NCBI GenBank assembly: GCA_025352915.1
Contig: JANXSA010000442.1
Location: 1 to 15,597 of the forward strand
Length of the DNA stretch: 15,597 nucleotides
Reading direction: 5' to 3'
Origin: Rhodospirillales bacterium
GTDB taxonomy: Bacteria; Pseudomonadota; Alphaproteobacteria; Acetobacterales; Acetobacteraceae
Of this stretch, positions 4,049 to 15,597 are shown piece by piece (the first letter of the stretch is position 1; each line of letters starts with the position of its first letter). The position numbers were made by a program, and so were the translations under genes. The notes beneath the pieces were generated by a model. It was not told the origin of the DNA. It saw only the letters and a program-made list of their open reading frames with translations, and ran no database searches.

Positions 4049-5920
4049 TTACGCGACCCGCGTCCGGCGGTCCGTGGCTTTCCAGTAGCGGCCGATCATC
4101 GCTAGGTCGAAGTCGAAGCGGCGGGCGCCTTGCGCCTGGATGGTGGCGTCGCCGTCGGTCCAGCGCAGATCGCCTTCGCGGAGATGCCCGCCGGTGGTGA
4201 GGCGTGGATCGTCGATGGCGGCGGGGTTTAGGTCAAAGCGCGGGTTGGCGATGGCCACGCCGAGGCGGCGGGGGTCTTGGCCGGCGGCAGTGGTTTCTGC
4301 AGGGCTCCAGGTGCGGGAGCGGAGCTGGATTTGGCGCGCGCCGAGCGGCATGGACACAATCACGCGCTGGGTGGCGACGAACAGGCGGGCGGGAGCGCCG
4401 TCGACCAGCACGCGCAGGTCGGGATCGTCAGTCATTACGTGGCCCAGGCGTTCGGCGCGGGCGAGCAGGCGGGAGCGCAGGCTGGAGAGGGCGGGGCCTT
4501 CCAGGAGTAGTGGCGCGCAGCCTTTGCGTTCCCAGATGCCGCGGCTGAAATCGGGGTGCAGCATCACGGCGCCCCGCTCATTGTTGAAGTTGGGCGCGTT
4601 GGCGAAGGCGGCGCGGTTGCCGGTATCGAGGTAGGTTTCGGCGGCCAGGCCCTCGGCCGAGACGATGGCGTGGGCGGGCAGTTCGACGTGCCAGTAAGTG
4701 ACGGTGTCGGTTGGTTCTTGCGTGATGGTGGCGCCGTTGATCAGCAGGTGCGCGGGCACCAGGCCGCCGGCGGCGAACACCGCGTGGTCGGGCGAGAGGA
4801 ACAGGTCGCGCGCCGGGCGGCCGGGGCCGAAGGCGTGGCGGGCGATGCGGATCGGCCAGACGCTGCGCGGGCGCGGGTGGCGCCGGCAATCGATGGTGCG
4901 CCAGCCGAGCCATTTCACCGCGGCGGTGGTGCCGTCGTGCAGGGTGATGGCGTCGCCGATGGCCAGGTCTTCGACCGCGCACCAGCCGAATGGGGTGCGC
5001 AGGCGGGTGCCCTGGCGGAAGCAGGGGATGCCGTCCGGCGCGTTGAGGTTGAGATCGAAGCCGGGGCCGGAGAGCGGCAGGCCCTCGTAGAGGACCGAGG
5101 AGGTGGTGGGCACGCCGGCGCCGATCGGCGAAATTCCGGCGAACAGCAGCACGTCCATGGTCGAGCGGAAGCTGAAGCCGGCAAGTGAATTGCCGGGCGC
5201 CAGGCGCGCGGCCGGCGTGGACGCCACCCATTCGATGCCGAAGCCGTCGGATGGGCCGTTATGGGTGACGATCGCGTTCCAGCCCGTCGGCGGCGTCAGC
5301 AGTTGCGGCTGCACCGTCATGTAGTTCTCGTCCGGCACGTCGTTCCAGGCGAACCAGAAGGTGCCGATGGTGGTGGTGCCGTCGTTGTGCAGGGTGATGT
5401 TGTAGTCGTGCAGCGTGCCCGGCTCCTCGGGTGGCGCGAAGGCTGGGGTGATGGTGTACACCGCGATGGCGTGCAGCCCGACCGGACCGCCGGGGGCGGT
5501 ATCGGAGGTGAAGGTGAAGCCAGGGTCGGAGAACGGACCGGCGCTGTAGACGAACGAGAAGGTGGTGTCGAAATCGGTGTCGATCGACGACTTGCCGGCC
5601 ATGGTCGCGGGCGCCGTCGCCGACTGGAAGCTGAACCCCTCCAGCGATCCGCCGGCTGGGCGCGCCGCCGGCGACGAGGCGATCCAGAGGATGCCGAAGC
5701 CGTCGGTCGGCCCATTATGGGTGATGCTCGGGTTCCAGCCGGCCGGCGAGGTGATCTGGCTGGGCGAGGTCGGCATGAAGTTCTGGTCGGGCAAGTCGTC
5801 CCACGCGAACCAGAATGTTCCAATAGTGGTGTCGCCGGTGTTGTTCAACTTGATCCCGTAATGGAACAGCGACGGGTTGATCTGGCTCCAGGTGAAGTCG
5901 GTGGTCGCCTGTAGCGCCAT
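4049..5920 (-). CDS. Hint-domain protein with duplicated N-terminal beta-rich domain
   Basis: A 623-residue protein. Residues 17-137 and 171-293 are two copies of a beta-rich domain sharing TTIGTFWFAW, THNGP(T/S)DGFGI and SPAAR-type motifs, offset by 152 residues. Residues 300-440 are a Hint (Hedgehog/intein) domain of the Hint_2 type: Cys300 begins CFRQGTRLRTPFG, followed by VEDLAIGD, then LFLSPDHAVF with the block-B-like His379, ending near ETYLDTGNRAAF. Residues 440-623 are the extension common on Acetobacteraceae Hint proteins (HPDF...WERKGCAPLLLEGP, ARAERLGHVMTDDPDLRVL, RRLGVAIANP). Hint domains catalyse N-S acyl shift and self-cleavage; there is no terminal His-Asn splicing dyad at the domain end, so cleavage rather than splicing is expected. 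No classical signal peptide is seen. I chose ATG 5920 because a GAGGGG ribosome site lies about 8 nt upstream; an in-frame ATG at 5983 gives a basic extension without homology. The gene faces the VOC gene tail to tail. Biological role unknown, probably extracellular. Confidence 0.9.
   Translation of the reverse strand: MALQATTDFTWSQINPSLFHYGIKLNNTGDTTIGTFWFAWDDLPDQNFMPTSPSQITSPAGWNPSITHNGPTDGFGILWIASSPAARPAGGSLEGFSFQSATAPATMAGKSSIDTDFDTTFSFVYSAGPFSDPGFTFTSDTAPGGPVGLHAIAVYTITPAFAPPEEPGTLHDYNITLHNDGTTTIGTFWFAWNDVPDENYMTVQPQLLTPPTGWNAIVTHNGPSDGFGIEWVASTPAARLAPGNSLAGFSFRSTMDVLLFAGISPIGAGVPTTSSVLYEGLPLSGPGFDLNLNAPDGIPCFRQGTRLRTPFGWCAVEDLAIGDAITLHDGTTAAVKWLGWRTIDCRRHPRPRSVWPIRIARHAFGPGRPARDLFLSPDHAVFAAGGLVPAHLLINGATITQEPTDTVTYWHVELPAHAIVSAEGLAAETYLDTGNRAAFANAPNFNNERGAVMLHPDFSRGIWERKGCAPLLLEGPALSSLRSRLLARAERLGHVMTDDPDLRVLVDGAPARLFVATQRVIVSMPLGARQIQLRSRTWSPAETTAAGQDPRRLGVAIANPRFDLNPAAIDDPRLTTGGHLREGDLRWTDGDATIQAQGARRFDFDLAMIGRYWKATDRRTRVA
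5042..5872 (-). repeat. Internal domain duplication in the Hint protein (two diverged ~365-bp copies, 456-bp offset)
   Basis: Copy A (about 5510-5872) and copy B (about 5042-5410) encode homologous domains; matching residues sit 152 codons apart. The best-conserved block, encoding IGTFWFAW, is still recognisable at the DNA level around 5800-5824 and 5345-5368, but most third positions differ. This is an old protein-domain duplication, not a recent DNA repeat. Confidence 0.85.
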
Positions 5921-5986
5921 GGCCCGCCCCTCGTTCTTGTTGACGCATCTGGCAACGCGGCGAGCCAGCGAGTCAATTGCCAAGTG

Positions 5987-13422: not shown

Positions 13423-14865
13423 ATGACCTCCCCCCTCGCCGTCACCGACAACTTGTTCTTCGCGCGCACTGGGGCGACACTGGAACGGGACGTCGCCGAA
13501 AGACTGACGCGTGAGGCGCTGGCTTGTGCGGATGATGGGGAGTTGTTCCTCGAATACCGTGAGAGCGAGAGTATCAACCTGGATGACGGCCGCATCCGCG
13601 CCGCTGGGTTCGATACGTCGCTGGGCTTTGGACTTCGCGCAGTCGCCGGTGAAGCGGCAGGCTATGCTCATGCAGGCGAGCTGACTGAACATGCGCTGAA
13701 GCGCGCGGCGGCAACAGTCTGCGCAGTTGCTTCTGGCCACTCGGGCGTGGCAGCCGAGCCGCCCCAAGGCACCAACCGTCGGCTCTATGCCGACGCAAAC
13801 CCACTCTCGGGCATGGATTTCGCCCGGCGCACCGGCGTGCTGGCGGAAATCGATGCCTACGCCCGCGAGCGGGACAGCCGGATCAAACAGGTCATGGCTT
13901 CGTTGGGTGGCGAATGGCAGGCTGTGCAGATTATCCGCGCCGATGGCACACGGGTGGCCGATTTGCGTCCGCTCGTGCGGCTGAGCGTGTCGGTGGTGGT
14001 GGAGGTCAACGGTCGCCGCGAAACCGGCAGCTTCGGCATGGGCGGACGCTATGGCTATGAGAGGATATTGGCGCCGGAGACTTGGCGCGCCGCGGTGGAC
14101 GAGGCGCTGCGGCAGGCGCTGGTGAACCTTGACAGCATTCCGGCGCCCGCGGGCGAGATGCCGGTGGTGCTCGGGCCGGGCTGGCCAGGCATCCTGCTGC
14201 ACGAGGCAATTGGTCACGGGCTGGAGGGTGACTTCAACCGCAAAAAAACCTCCGCCTTCTCCGGCCTGCTGGGAACCCGCATCGCCGCGCGCGGCGTAAC
14301 AGTGGTGGATGACGGGACGCTGGCCGACCGGCGCGGCAGCCTGACGGTGGATGATGAGGGCACACCGACCGGACGCACTATCTTGATCGAGGACGGCATC
14401 CTCACTGGCTTCCTGCACGACCGGCTGAACGCCCGGTTGATGGGTGGGCGCCCCACCGGCAACGGTCGCCGCCAATCTTACGCCCATGCTCCCATGCCGC
14501 GCATGACCAACACTGTGATGTTGGGCGGCAGCGCCACGCCAGAGGAGGTCATCAGCTCGGTGCCACGCGGCATCTATGCGGTCAATTTTGGTGGCGGCCA
14601 GGTCGACATCACGTCCGGGAAGTTCGTTTTCTCGGCCAGTGAGGCCTACCTGATCGAAAACGGCAAGATCGGCGCGCCGGTGAAGGGCGCCACCTTGATC
14701 GGTAACGGGCCGGATGCGCTGACCAAAGTGGCGCTGGTGGCAAACGACATGGCGCTTGACCCTGGCATTGGTACCTGCGGAAAAAGCGGCCAGGGCGTGC
14801 CGGTTGGCGTTGGACAGCCGACGATACGGCTGGGCGGTCTGACTGTAGGCGGCACTGCAGCCTAG
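13423..14865 (+). CDS. tldD: Metalloprotease TldD
   Basis: A 480-residue cytoplasmic zinc metalloprotease that works with TldE/PmbA to degrade unfolded peptides and, in some bacteria, to mature peptide toxins or modified peptides. The active-site helix is LLHEAIGHGLEGDF, with ligands His260 and His265 and catalytic Glu261 in HExxxH. The third ligand Cys452 lies in GTCGKSGQGVPVGVGQPT near the C-terminus. Other family blocks are DDGRIRAAGFDTSLGFGLR, RRETGSFGMGGRYGYE, TRIAARGVTVVDDGTL and NFGGGQVDITSGKFVFSASE. Full length and intact. The start at 13423 has a GGAG about ten bases upstream and lies 15 bp after ctaA. No tldE partner is in the window. In many alphaproteobacteria tldD neighbours the cytochrome oxidase operon, consistent with ctaA next door. 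Confidence 0.97.
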   Translation: MTSPLAVTDNLFFARTGATLERDVAERLTREALACADDGELFLEYRESESINLDDGRIRAAGFDTSLGFGLRAVAGEAAGYAHAGELTEHALKRAAATVCAVASGHSGVAAEPPQGTNRRLYADANPLSGMDFARRTGVLAEIDAYARERDSRIKQVMASLGGEWQAVQIIRADGTRVADLRPLVRLSVSVVVEVNGRRETGSFGMGGRYGYERILAPETWRAAVDEALRQALVNLDSIPAPAGEMPVVLGPGWPGILLHEAIGHGLEGDFNRKKTSAFSGLLGTRIAARGVTVVDDGTLADRRGSLTVDDEGTPTGRTILIEDGILTGFLHDRLNARLMGGRPTGNGRRQSYAHAPMPRMTNTVMLGGSATPEEVISSVPRGIYAVNFGGGQVDITSGKFVFSASEAYLIENGKIGAPVKGATLIGNGPDALTKVALVANDMALDPGIGTCGKSGQGVPVGVGQPTIRLGGLTVGGTAA

Positions 14866-15298: not shown

Positions 15299-15322
15299 TT
15301 AACGCCGTCTTAACGTCGTTAA
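15299..15322 (+). promoter_or_regulatory. Cluster of three TTAA half-sites, CtrA-box-like
   Basis: TTAA at 15299-15302 and TTAAC at 15310-15314 are separated by exactly 7 bp, the TTAA-N7-TTAAC arrangement bound by the alphaproteobacterial response regulator CtrA. A third TTAA at 15319-15322 makes TTAACGTCGTTAA (15310-15322) a perfect 13-bp inverted repeat as well. The cluster is about 100 bp upstream of the repeat-protein start, on the right strand for a promoter. A different dimeric regulator using the palindrome is the main alternative. Confidence 0.5.
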
Positions 15323-15389: not shown

Positions 15390-15417
15390 AGTCACTTGGA
15401 TGAAAAGGGCCGCCAAC

Positions 15418-15597
15418 ATGTCGAACCAGAACGTTGCCGTCATCGCCTCCAAGATCCGCCTCGGCGCGATGAGCCCGGCGCTGGCCACCTCGAAGGTCCG
15501 CCTCGGCGCGATGAGCCCGGCGCTGGCCACCTCGAAGGTCGTGCTCGGCGCGATGAGCCCGGCGCTGGCCACCTCGAAGGTCGTGCTCGGCGCGATG
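15418..15597 (+). CDS. Unrecognised 14-residue tandem-repeat protein, N-terminus only
   Basis: The frame opens at ATG 15418 with an AAGGG ribosome site 8 nt upstream and continues to the window end, so only the first 60 residues are seen. After MSNQNVAVIAS come units of 14 residues, SK-x-x-LGAMSPALAT, where the two x positions read IR, VR, VV and VV in order. The segment before the first unit (NVAVIAS) looks like a degenerate preceding copy. There is no signal peptide, Cys or charged cluster beyond the Lys/Arg of each unit; the repeat is amphipathic with alternating small and aliphatic residues and one Pro per unit. I do not recognise the family. The minus strand is also open through the repeats, but only the plus frame has a ribosome site and an upstream regulatory-looking region. 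The total length and C-terminus are unknown. Confidence 0.7.
   Translation, partial: MSNQNVAVIASKIRLGAMSPALATSKVRLGAMSPALATSKVVLGAMSPALATSKVVLGAM
15451..15597 (+). repeat. 42-bp tandem repeat array, 3.5 copies visible, continuing past the window
   Basis: Units run 15451-15492, 15493-15534, 15535-15576, and 15577 to the end (half unit). Each is 42 bp, a multiple of three, so the reading frame is kept. Bases 4-9 of the unit vary (ATCCGC, GTCCGC, GTCGTG, GTCGTG); the remaining positions are identical in all visible copies. This degree of identity points to recent expansion or ongoing homogenisation. Confidence 0.95.

Follow-up and report, generated by a model that had tools for sequence, protein, structure and literature searches.

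Tandem-unit peptide genes that recur beside a DUF6065 gene, and their possible role as peptide precursors

The window, by which we mean the whole stretch of 15,597 nucleotides analysed here, ends inside a gene for a small protein built of 14-residue tandem units, and the decisive feature of this gene is one that is invisible within the window, because it would lie past the contig end: a partner gene that encodes a DUF6065 protein. In relatives the pairing recurs: of 80 loci belonging to a single DUF6065 subfamily, 73 have a same-strand array upstream of DUF6065. The system is found in Acetobacteraceae, Reyranella, Sneathiella, a rhizobial plasmid, and (pro)phages. We put at about 0.53 the probability that the array is a peptide precursor, often a multi-core one, which is acted on by its dUTPase-fold partner.

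The array and DUF6065 together form an apparently undescribed system, new by elimination. DUF6065 was not found in print in the literature searched, which covers few subscription papers, and the combination of dUTPase and RiPP gave nothing relevant there; the unit strings, as far as the titles and matching passages go, matched either papers on unrelated subjects or an unrelated protein.

The repeat gene at the contig end and its relatives

The window is the entire contig C352 of a MAG with 749 contigs that is 69% complete, so that its right edge is an assembly break within the array. The open frame starts at ATG 15418 on the forward strand and continues past this edge, and Tandem Repeats Finder reports positions 15446-15597 with a period of 42, 3.6 copies, 95% matches, and a score of 248; the eight remaining rows for the window score 31-45. 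The tandem 42-bp units in an open frame described in the first-pass annotation are thus borne out. The features concerned are these:

13423..14865, + strand: TldD metalloprotease gene, a syntenic upstream neighbour of the array in some relatives
15299..15315, + strand: TTAACGCCGTCTTAACG, a TTAA-N7-TTAA direct repeat, candidate regulator site upstream of the array, kept in the genus
15403..15409, + strand: ribosome-binding-like AAAAGGG, 8 bases ahead of ATG 15418, assigned from its sequence
15418..15597, + strand: tandem-unit peptide gene, 5' part, comprising MSNQNVAVIA as start segment and 3.6 14-residue units; the frame is still open where the contig ends
15448..15489, + strand: unit 1, SKIRLGAMSPALAT
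15490..15531, + strand: unit 2, SKVRLGAMSPALAT
15532..15573, + strand: unit 3, SKVVLGAMSPALAT
15574..15597, + strand: unit 4, SKVVLGAM, cut by the contig end

The AAAAGGG stretch is largely kept in same-genus relatives (alignment of five upstream regions). Regarding the earlier statement that only codons 2 and 3 of the unit vary, with no synonymous change, the differences in this pair (I/V and R/V) stand, but the serine codon, which is TCC in unit 1 and TCG in units 2-4, is a synonymous change. A frame break or stop just past the edge had also been considered, and relatives stay open through long arrays.

Elsewhere in the window, on the reverse strand, positions 4049-5983 encode a 644-residue protein with a Hint_2 domain behind apparently two similar N-terminal modules, and positions 2-1681 and 1246-2913 hold adjacent, similar solute-binding-type frames (SBP_bac_5 confirmed for the second), probably a local duplication. 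A candidate second array copy in the same genome (contig C613) was rejected, as its reading frames show a match by chance within another gene.

When about 5.8 billion proteins were searched, 13 matches had E up to 10, and seven of these reached 1e-3 or better; all 13 were short (35-102 residues) with one to four unit copies each. On the DNA level, the strict unit pattern was matched in 13 of 299 genomes of the window's taxonomic family (G038 among them, with a lone match) and in seven of eight genomes of its genus, with no match in the same-genus genome G119, which is 97% complete. Two broader scans were set aside: a loose unit pattern gave about as many control matches as true ones over 12 genomes and is excluded from the counts, and a class scan with a protein-level DNA pattern gave one match in each of 7 of 385 genomes, against 24 reversed-control matches, which we read as background. 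MAG record names such as Asaia bogorensis and Nitrosovibrio are the depositors' labels.

In L041, of the same genus, the array gene is complete with nine units and ends exactly at a unit, as is the case for 32 of 72 arrays; its gene order is that of the window (CtaA, TldD, array), and the DUF6065 gene comes next. Unit number varies freely between relatives, the largest array having at least 18 units, and counts from draft genomes are lower bounds, since N runs or contig ends fall in the arrays of L070, L075, L079, L131, and many others. That arrays break assemblies, leaving the genes often cut off or masked in drafts, may explain why they were overlooked. The period ranges from 9 to 25 residues and is mostly uniform inside one array, while L114 has its units distributed between two reading frames. 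Between the likely Met and the first unit lie 1 to about 27 residues, with no start segment common across the array clades; the Roseomonas clade has a common segment of its own.

The nine-unit array, modelled with AlphaFold2 from a shallow alignment of 10 aligned sequences, reached a pLDDT of 47 and a pTM of 0.19, and the array protein is therefore predicted to be disordered, with no folded repeat. The unit matches no known repeat family above its cut-off, in agreement with the earlier description of an unrecognised tandem-unit protein. It is highly improbable that the array is a structural or surface repeat protein, such as an adhesin, an S-layer protein, or a TAL-like recognition protein, two of which the first-pass annotation had entertained. 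The weak NCBIfam resemblance to YadA (27 bits, E 2.1e-6), which would favour a surface protein, lies far below the cut-off of 750; no signal sequence or anchor was seen by eye in complete array ORFs, the disordered model speaks against both the adhesin and the TAL-like forms, and the recurrent DUF6065 partner counts against this reading as well. Moreover, TAL-effector repeats are helical, 33-35 residues long, and carry a two-residue code, whereas the units described here have 9-25 residues and a disordered model, and the residue pair that suggested the analogy is nearly invariant in the family.

The unit motif and the selection acting on it

Majority residues were tallied over 73 arrays, i.e., 72 from relatives and the one in the window, and give the family motif D-A-G-K-V-R-L-G-[G/A]-x-[A/S]-P-[S/A/T]-L. 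The majority residue is D in 61 arrays, A in 53, G in 43 or S in 19, K in 70, V in 71, R in 69, L in 56, and G in all 73. After this invariant G come G (45) or A (24) and then the variable site, which is M in 24 arrays, F in 15, I in 8, Y in 7, V in 6, L in 4, N in 4, H in 2, and others in the remainder; past it stand A (46) or S (23), P (63), S/T/A, and L (67). With V and R so prevalent, the varying pair noted in the window does not hold as a family rule. The broader idea of a fixed scaffold with variable residues keeps its first half, as the frame is fixed, but the variable site is core position 6, after G-G/A, and not the noted pair.

Within arrays of three or more units, the ten-residue core has a pS of 0.342 and a pN of 0.041 (pN/pS 0.119), and the five residues ahead of it have a pN/pS of 0.36. 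In 54 of 57 arrays pS exceeds pN; two are reversed (L114 and the window, with three units each) and one is a tie. This large excess of synonymous over non-synonymous changes indicates that the core is translated and held by strong purifying selection. The window array alone gives a pS of 0.078 and a pN of 0.093 from three units, too few to judge, and the lack of synonymous change once noted there does not extend beyond it, as such changes dominate in the units of relatives.

These values bear on the plain alternative offered in the first-pass annotation, namely a neutral or selfish tandem expansion of a functionless short ORF, which would suit the few, mostly non-synonymous changes in the window and the unit number that is free between relatives. 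For the family it is contradicted by a core pN/pS near 0.12, by pS above pN in nearly every array, and by the recurrent partner gene, and it is the least probable of the readings considered here.

The partner tree, built quickly and without bootstrap, requires core position 6 to have changed at least 24 times. In the Roseomonas clade, six identities occur at the variable residue over 52 units, with partners up to 99.6% identical, and the differences at this residue lie mostly between genomes.

Linkage to DUF6065 and the flanking elements

For the partner search, a named genome set was queried with the partner only and without the repeat, which yielded 114 relatives, of which 80 were kept. The scan words PEDWD[DE]Y and TRAFR[YF]CE restrict it to one DUF6065 subfamily, the queries were partners from array loci, and closely related loci occur among the 80, which makes the counts non-independent. 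The 73 loci with an upstream array comprise 72 arrays, after a false match at L095 was dropped, and a partial unit in L100. At three others (L098, L101, L102) the contig ends within 160 bases upstream of DUF6065, and at four (L089, L095, L096, L104) upstream sequence is present with no adjoining array. The genomes of L089, L095, and L096 have an array elsewhere (G913:C135, G914:C3, G915:C171), with no DUF6065 in those stretches; they keep the two apart, which bears on action in trans. No array was found in the genome of L104. On the partner tree, L089, L095, and L104 form one clade, and L096 is outside the tree sample.

In a class-wide sample of 385 genomes, which is not fully separate because L224, a strong locus, and L130 share both array and partner, 15 genomes have a DUF6065 match; all four strong ones (E < 1e-100) have arrays, and none was recognised within about 1.5 kb of the 11 weak ones. 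In a phylum sample of 249 genomes, PF19541 was over its cut-off at 14 loci (12 genomes), with no array in about 1.5 kb, nor was an array recognised alongside the Ochrobactrum and Sinorhizobium matches (H3, H6). Arrays are thus seen with the one subfamily only, and not within about 1.5 kb of canonical DUF6065; the idea that the canonical form is array-associated was dropped, as the pattern flags at L135 and L141 are spurious.

No DUF6065 was found in the window's genome by Pfam, protein, or profile search; the window lacks the gene because its contig ends inside the array, and we take its absence from this incomplete assembly, broken in the array, as an assembly gap. Among eight same-genus genomes, a profile search found DUF6065 in seven, all except the window's own, with G119 having only two fragments on two contigs. 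Six same-genus genomes have a second, divergent DUF6065, with ARAAQYCD in place of TRAFRYCE. A small frame with one unit, ...VADSGLIRLGAAVGGPVRR or close, ends directly upstream of this paralog at all five loci examined (L243, L244, L246, L247, L248; the copy of G171 was left out). These peptides, all from one genus, have a common PLPP-containing stretch, and at L243 a BTAD protein lies divergent to the paralog. The unit would therefore work with DUF6065 singly as well as in arrays, which moves the precursor, regulatory, and new-product readings discussed below slightly up and the scaffold reading down.

Units also precede the partner in phage-like and plasmid settings. IMG/VR has 14 contigs with the partner, nine of them with more than 100 bases upstream, and units were seen by eye in eight of these nine, the exception being L165; L158 and L161 have one unit each. 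L169 has a 25-residue peptide of two short units together with DUF6065, flanked by the genes for an endolysin and an integrase. A Rhizobium plasmid encodes a 128-residue hypothetical protein with three units D-x-G-[K/N/R]-VHIANKSP-x-F, whose gene is followed by DUF6065 and then by an MFS transporter gene that overlaps it by four bases.

Several further loci deserve description on their own account. L157, L158, L164, and L165 have the order YeiH-like membrane protein (from the frame), peptide of one or two units (none seen in L165), DUF6065, two reverse-strand genes, and terminase-/portal-like genes (PHROGs on L158 only), which looks like a fixed prophage or transfer-agent border. Two IMG/VR stretches without DUF6065 (L053, 120-257; L054, 5001-5138) hold an ORF of 59 residues that has a complete unit and a partial one (MNLIHASKVRLGAMSPALASSKVMLGAA...), possibly a phage mimic or an acquired unit, and the next gene in L054 encodes a head maturation protease. 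One bin, Elioraea sp. bin.267, has two separate array-DUF6065 loci (L112, L119), both with two units starting VRLGGIINPL.

Between array and partner, a GC hairpin with a T-rich tail occurs in 27 of 70 intergenic stretches by a custom scan, against 3.0 expected from mononucleotide shuffles, and these hairpins fit an array made in excess over DUF6065. In 31 of 80 loci, the flanks examined include a gene that matches the BTAD-TPR regulator of L084; it is downstream and convergent in 20 of them, and of the 11 with an upstream copy, 8 have it divergent and 3 on the same strand. Its presence in such differing arrangements suggests a functional link. TldD is upstream in 14 of the 33 loci with more than 2.6 kb of upstream sequence; its proximity may be inherited synteny, and we do not claim it as part of the system. 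Clustering of neighbours over the 80 loci, with Pfam on representatives, gave DUF6065, the BTAD regulator, TldD, lipase, MFS, and housekeeping genes, with no constant third gene, no constant protease or exporter, and no known RiPP enzyme. MFS genes are directly upstream of DUF6065 in L095 and L104.

Within the genus and in L060, the TTAA-N7-TTAA repeat precedes the first unit by 136-146 bases, i.e., it occurs in 6 of 48 upstream regions against 0.33 expected. A relaxed direct repeat with the same 11-base step is found in 16 of 36 against 0.3, a form picked after looking and among loci many of which are related. The copy at 15299-15315 resembles the CtrA consensus, and the relaxed repeat would suit a CtrA-type or BTAD-type regulator. 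An Rfam search and a promoter scan gave no match, and neither did a phage collection for two partners.

The partner protein, the proposed role, and known systems

By the Pfam cut-off the partner is a DUF6065 protein: with a threshold of 26.6, all five partners scored 40.3-56.8 bits on PF19541, another two of two were also over, and the Rhizobium partner and the genus paralog scored 46.4 and 48.6. The family is sizeable: public protein sets contain 2934 members at E <= 1e-5. Array-linked and canonical members belong to the same Pfam family and have Cys55, Gly168, and Asn182 in common, whereas E129, Q134, R152, E167, and WFG 175-177 distinguish the array-linked subfamily.

The partner is predicted to have the trimeric dUTPase fold with altered catalytic motifs. 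This fold call comes from one model with a pLDDT of 79.7, in which the conserved loop 42-61 is poorly modelled, and the relation is structural only, because the profile-profile comparison is insignificant (hhalign probability 0.3%). NCBIfam dut reached E 0.25 for one of four partners, and a PDB profile search of the partner had no dUTPase among the matches listed. Trimeric dUTPases have five catalytic motifs. Compared with these enzymes (PF00692), motif 2 changes from PRSGLA to PPANLP, motif 3 from GxIDxDYRG to GIIETDRWFG, and motif 5 is absent by eye; the change in motif 3 turns the catalytic Asp into Glu. Judged by its motifs, the partner is not a dUTPase, and an ordinary separate dUTPase is present in all 14 genomes tested.

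A regulatory or inhibitory peptide, i.e., a pseudo-substrate that blocks or tunes a nucleotide-directed dUTPase-fold enzyme in a toxin-antitoxin or (pro)phage circuit, would suit a dedicated peptide that adjoins a nucleotide-enzyme fold, the copies beside phage genes (endolysin and integrase in L169, terminase and portal in L158), the one-unit forms, and the hairpins, which suggest peptide excess. We nevertheless consider it distinctly unlikely, given the altered motifs and the ordinary dUTPases, the lack of a PADLOC match for the five proteins tested, and the fact that an inhibitor needs no 18 or more homogenised copies.

In the precursor reading, gene 1 would encode a short disordered protein with one to many motif copies, probably in excess over the product of gene 2, which would be a trimeric dUTPase-fold protein of the DUF6065 subfamily with changed dUTPase motifs and a set of conserved residues peculiar to it. 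Most likely every unit serves as a substrate in its own right, of which DUF6065 would bind the D-x-G-K-V-R-L-G half and modify, or hand on for cleavage, the part that follows. The tandem genes would yield many copies of one small peptide, whose variant would be set by the variable residue, and the product would be released and exported. A precursor processed unit by unit fits the recurrent pairing and the one-unit forms as well as the hairpins, the linker of free length, and the variable residue. Where a regulator and transporters are present, in some loci, they suggest that the product is small, regulated, and exported. Against this reading count the absence of a constant RiPP enzyme, protease, or exporter, the short start segments with none common across clades, and the exceptions, namely the window's genome without DUF6065, G119, L165, and L104.

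A more far-reaching view, to which we give less than even odds and hold only tentatively, is that the peptides form a new class of natural product or signal, every unit being acted on by a dUTPase-fold protein that has left nucleotide chemistry behind. The recognition half would be D-x-G-K-V-R-L-G, and the product half past the glycine pair would have its key residue diversifying quickly between strains.

The array could instead be a multivalent ligand scaffold, an uncleaved disordered chain of motifs that gathers DUF6065 trimers, as clients, into an assembly. The predicted disorder, a fixed motif joined by linkers of free length (the period ranging from 9 to 25 residues), a partner whose fold family is trimeric, and the lack of a constant protease or exporter would all suit such a chain. 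Multivalency is, however, absent or small in the one-unit peptides of the genus (5/5 loci) and of phage-like loci, and client binding gives no account of the turnover at position 6 beside near-identical partners, which makes a scaffold rather improbable. CsoS2 and EPYC1 repeats gather Rubisco; the likeness to them lies in disordered, repeated binding motifs that serve a globular partner, and the difference in the one-unit forms found here and in a motif and partner that are unrelated.

Whichever reading holds, the pairing provides a first biological partner and a testable role for DUF6065. Should the peptide be modified, peptide-tailoring enzymes would gain a new kind, the dUTPase fold, which reads a short motif in every unit and is attractive for engineering, and a proven modified product would define a new RiPP class. 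If the peptide is only bound, the two genes would be a new bacterial scaffold or regulatory pair.

Returning to the precursor reading, the closest known systems are those with small peptide genes. PQQ and mycofactocin precursors likewise combine a small peptide gene with a dedicated partner, in Alphaproteobacteria and others, and a TldD-type protease lies near some array loci; the array loci differ in their tandem units and variable core residue, and no radical SAM gene was seen. Multi-core RiPP precursors are known from, e.g., cyanobactins, microviridins, and spliceotides. The arrays have no known RiPP enzyme and no start segment common across clades, and their partner is a dUTPase-fold DUF6065 protein; as no known RiPP enzyme was found, we do not assign them to the RiPPs. 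They do have a gene-encoded short precursor under peptide-level selection, as the core pN/pS indicates, and they resemble the multi-core precursors in having several short cores per small protein, a strain-variable core residue, signs of excess, and an adjoining partner gene.
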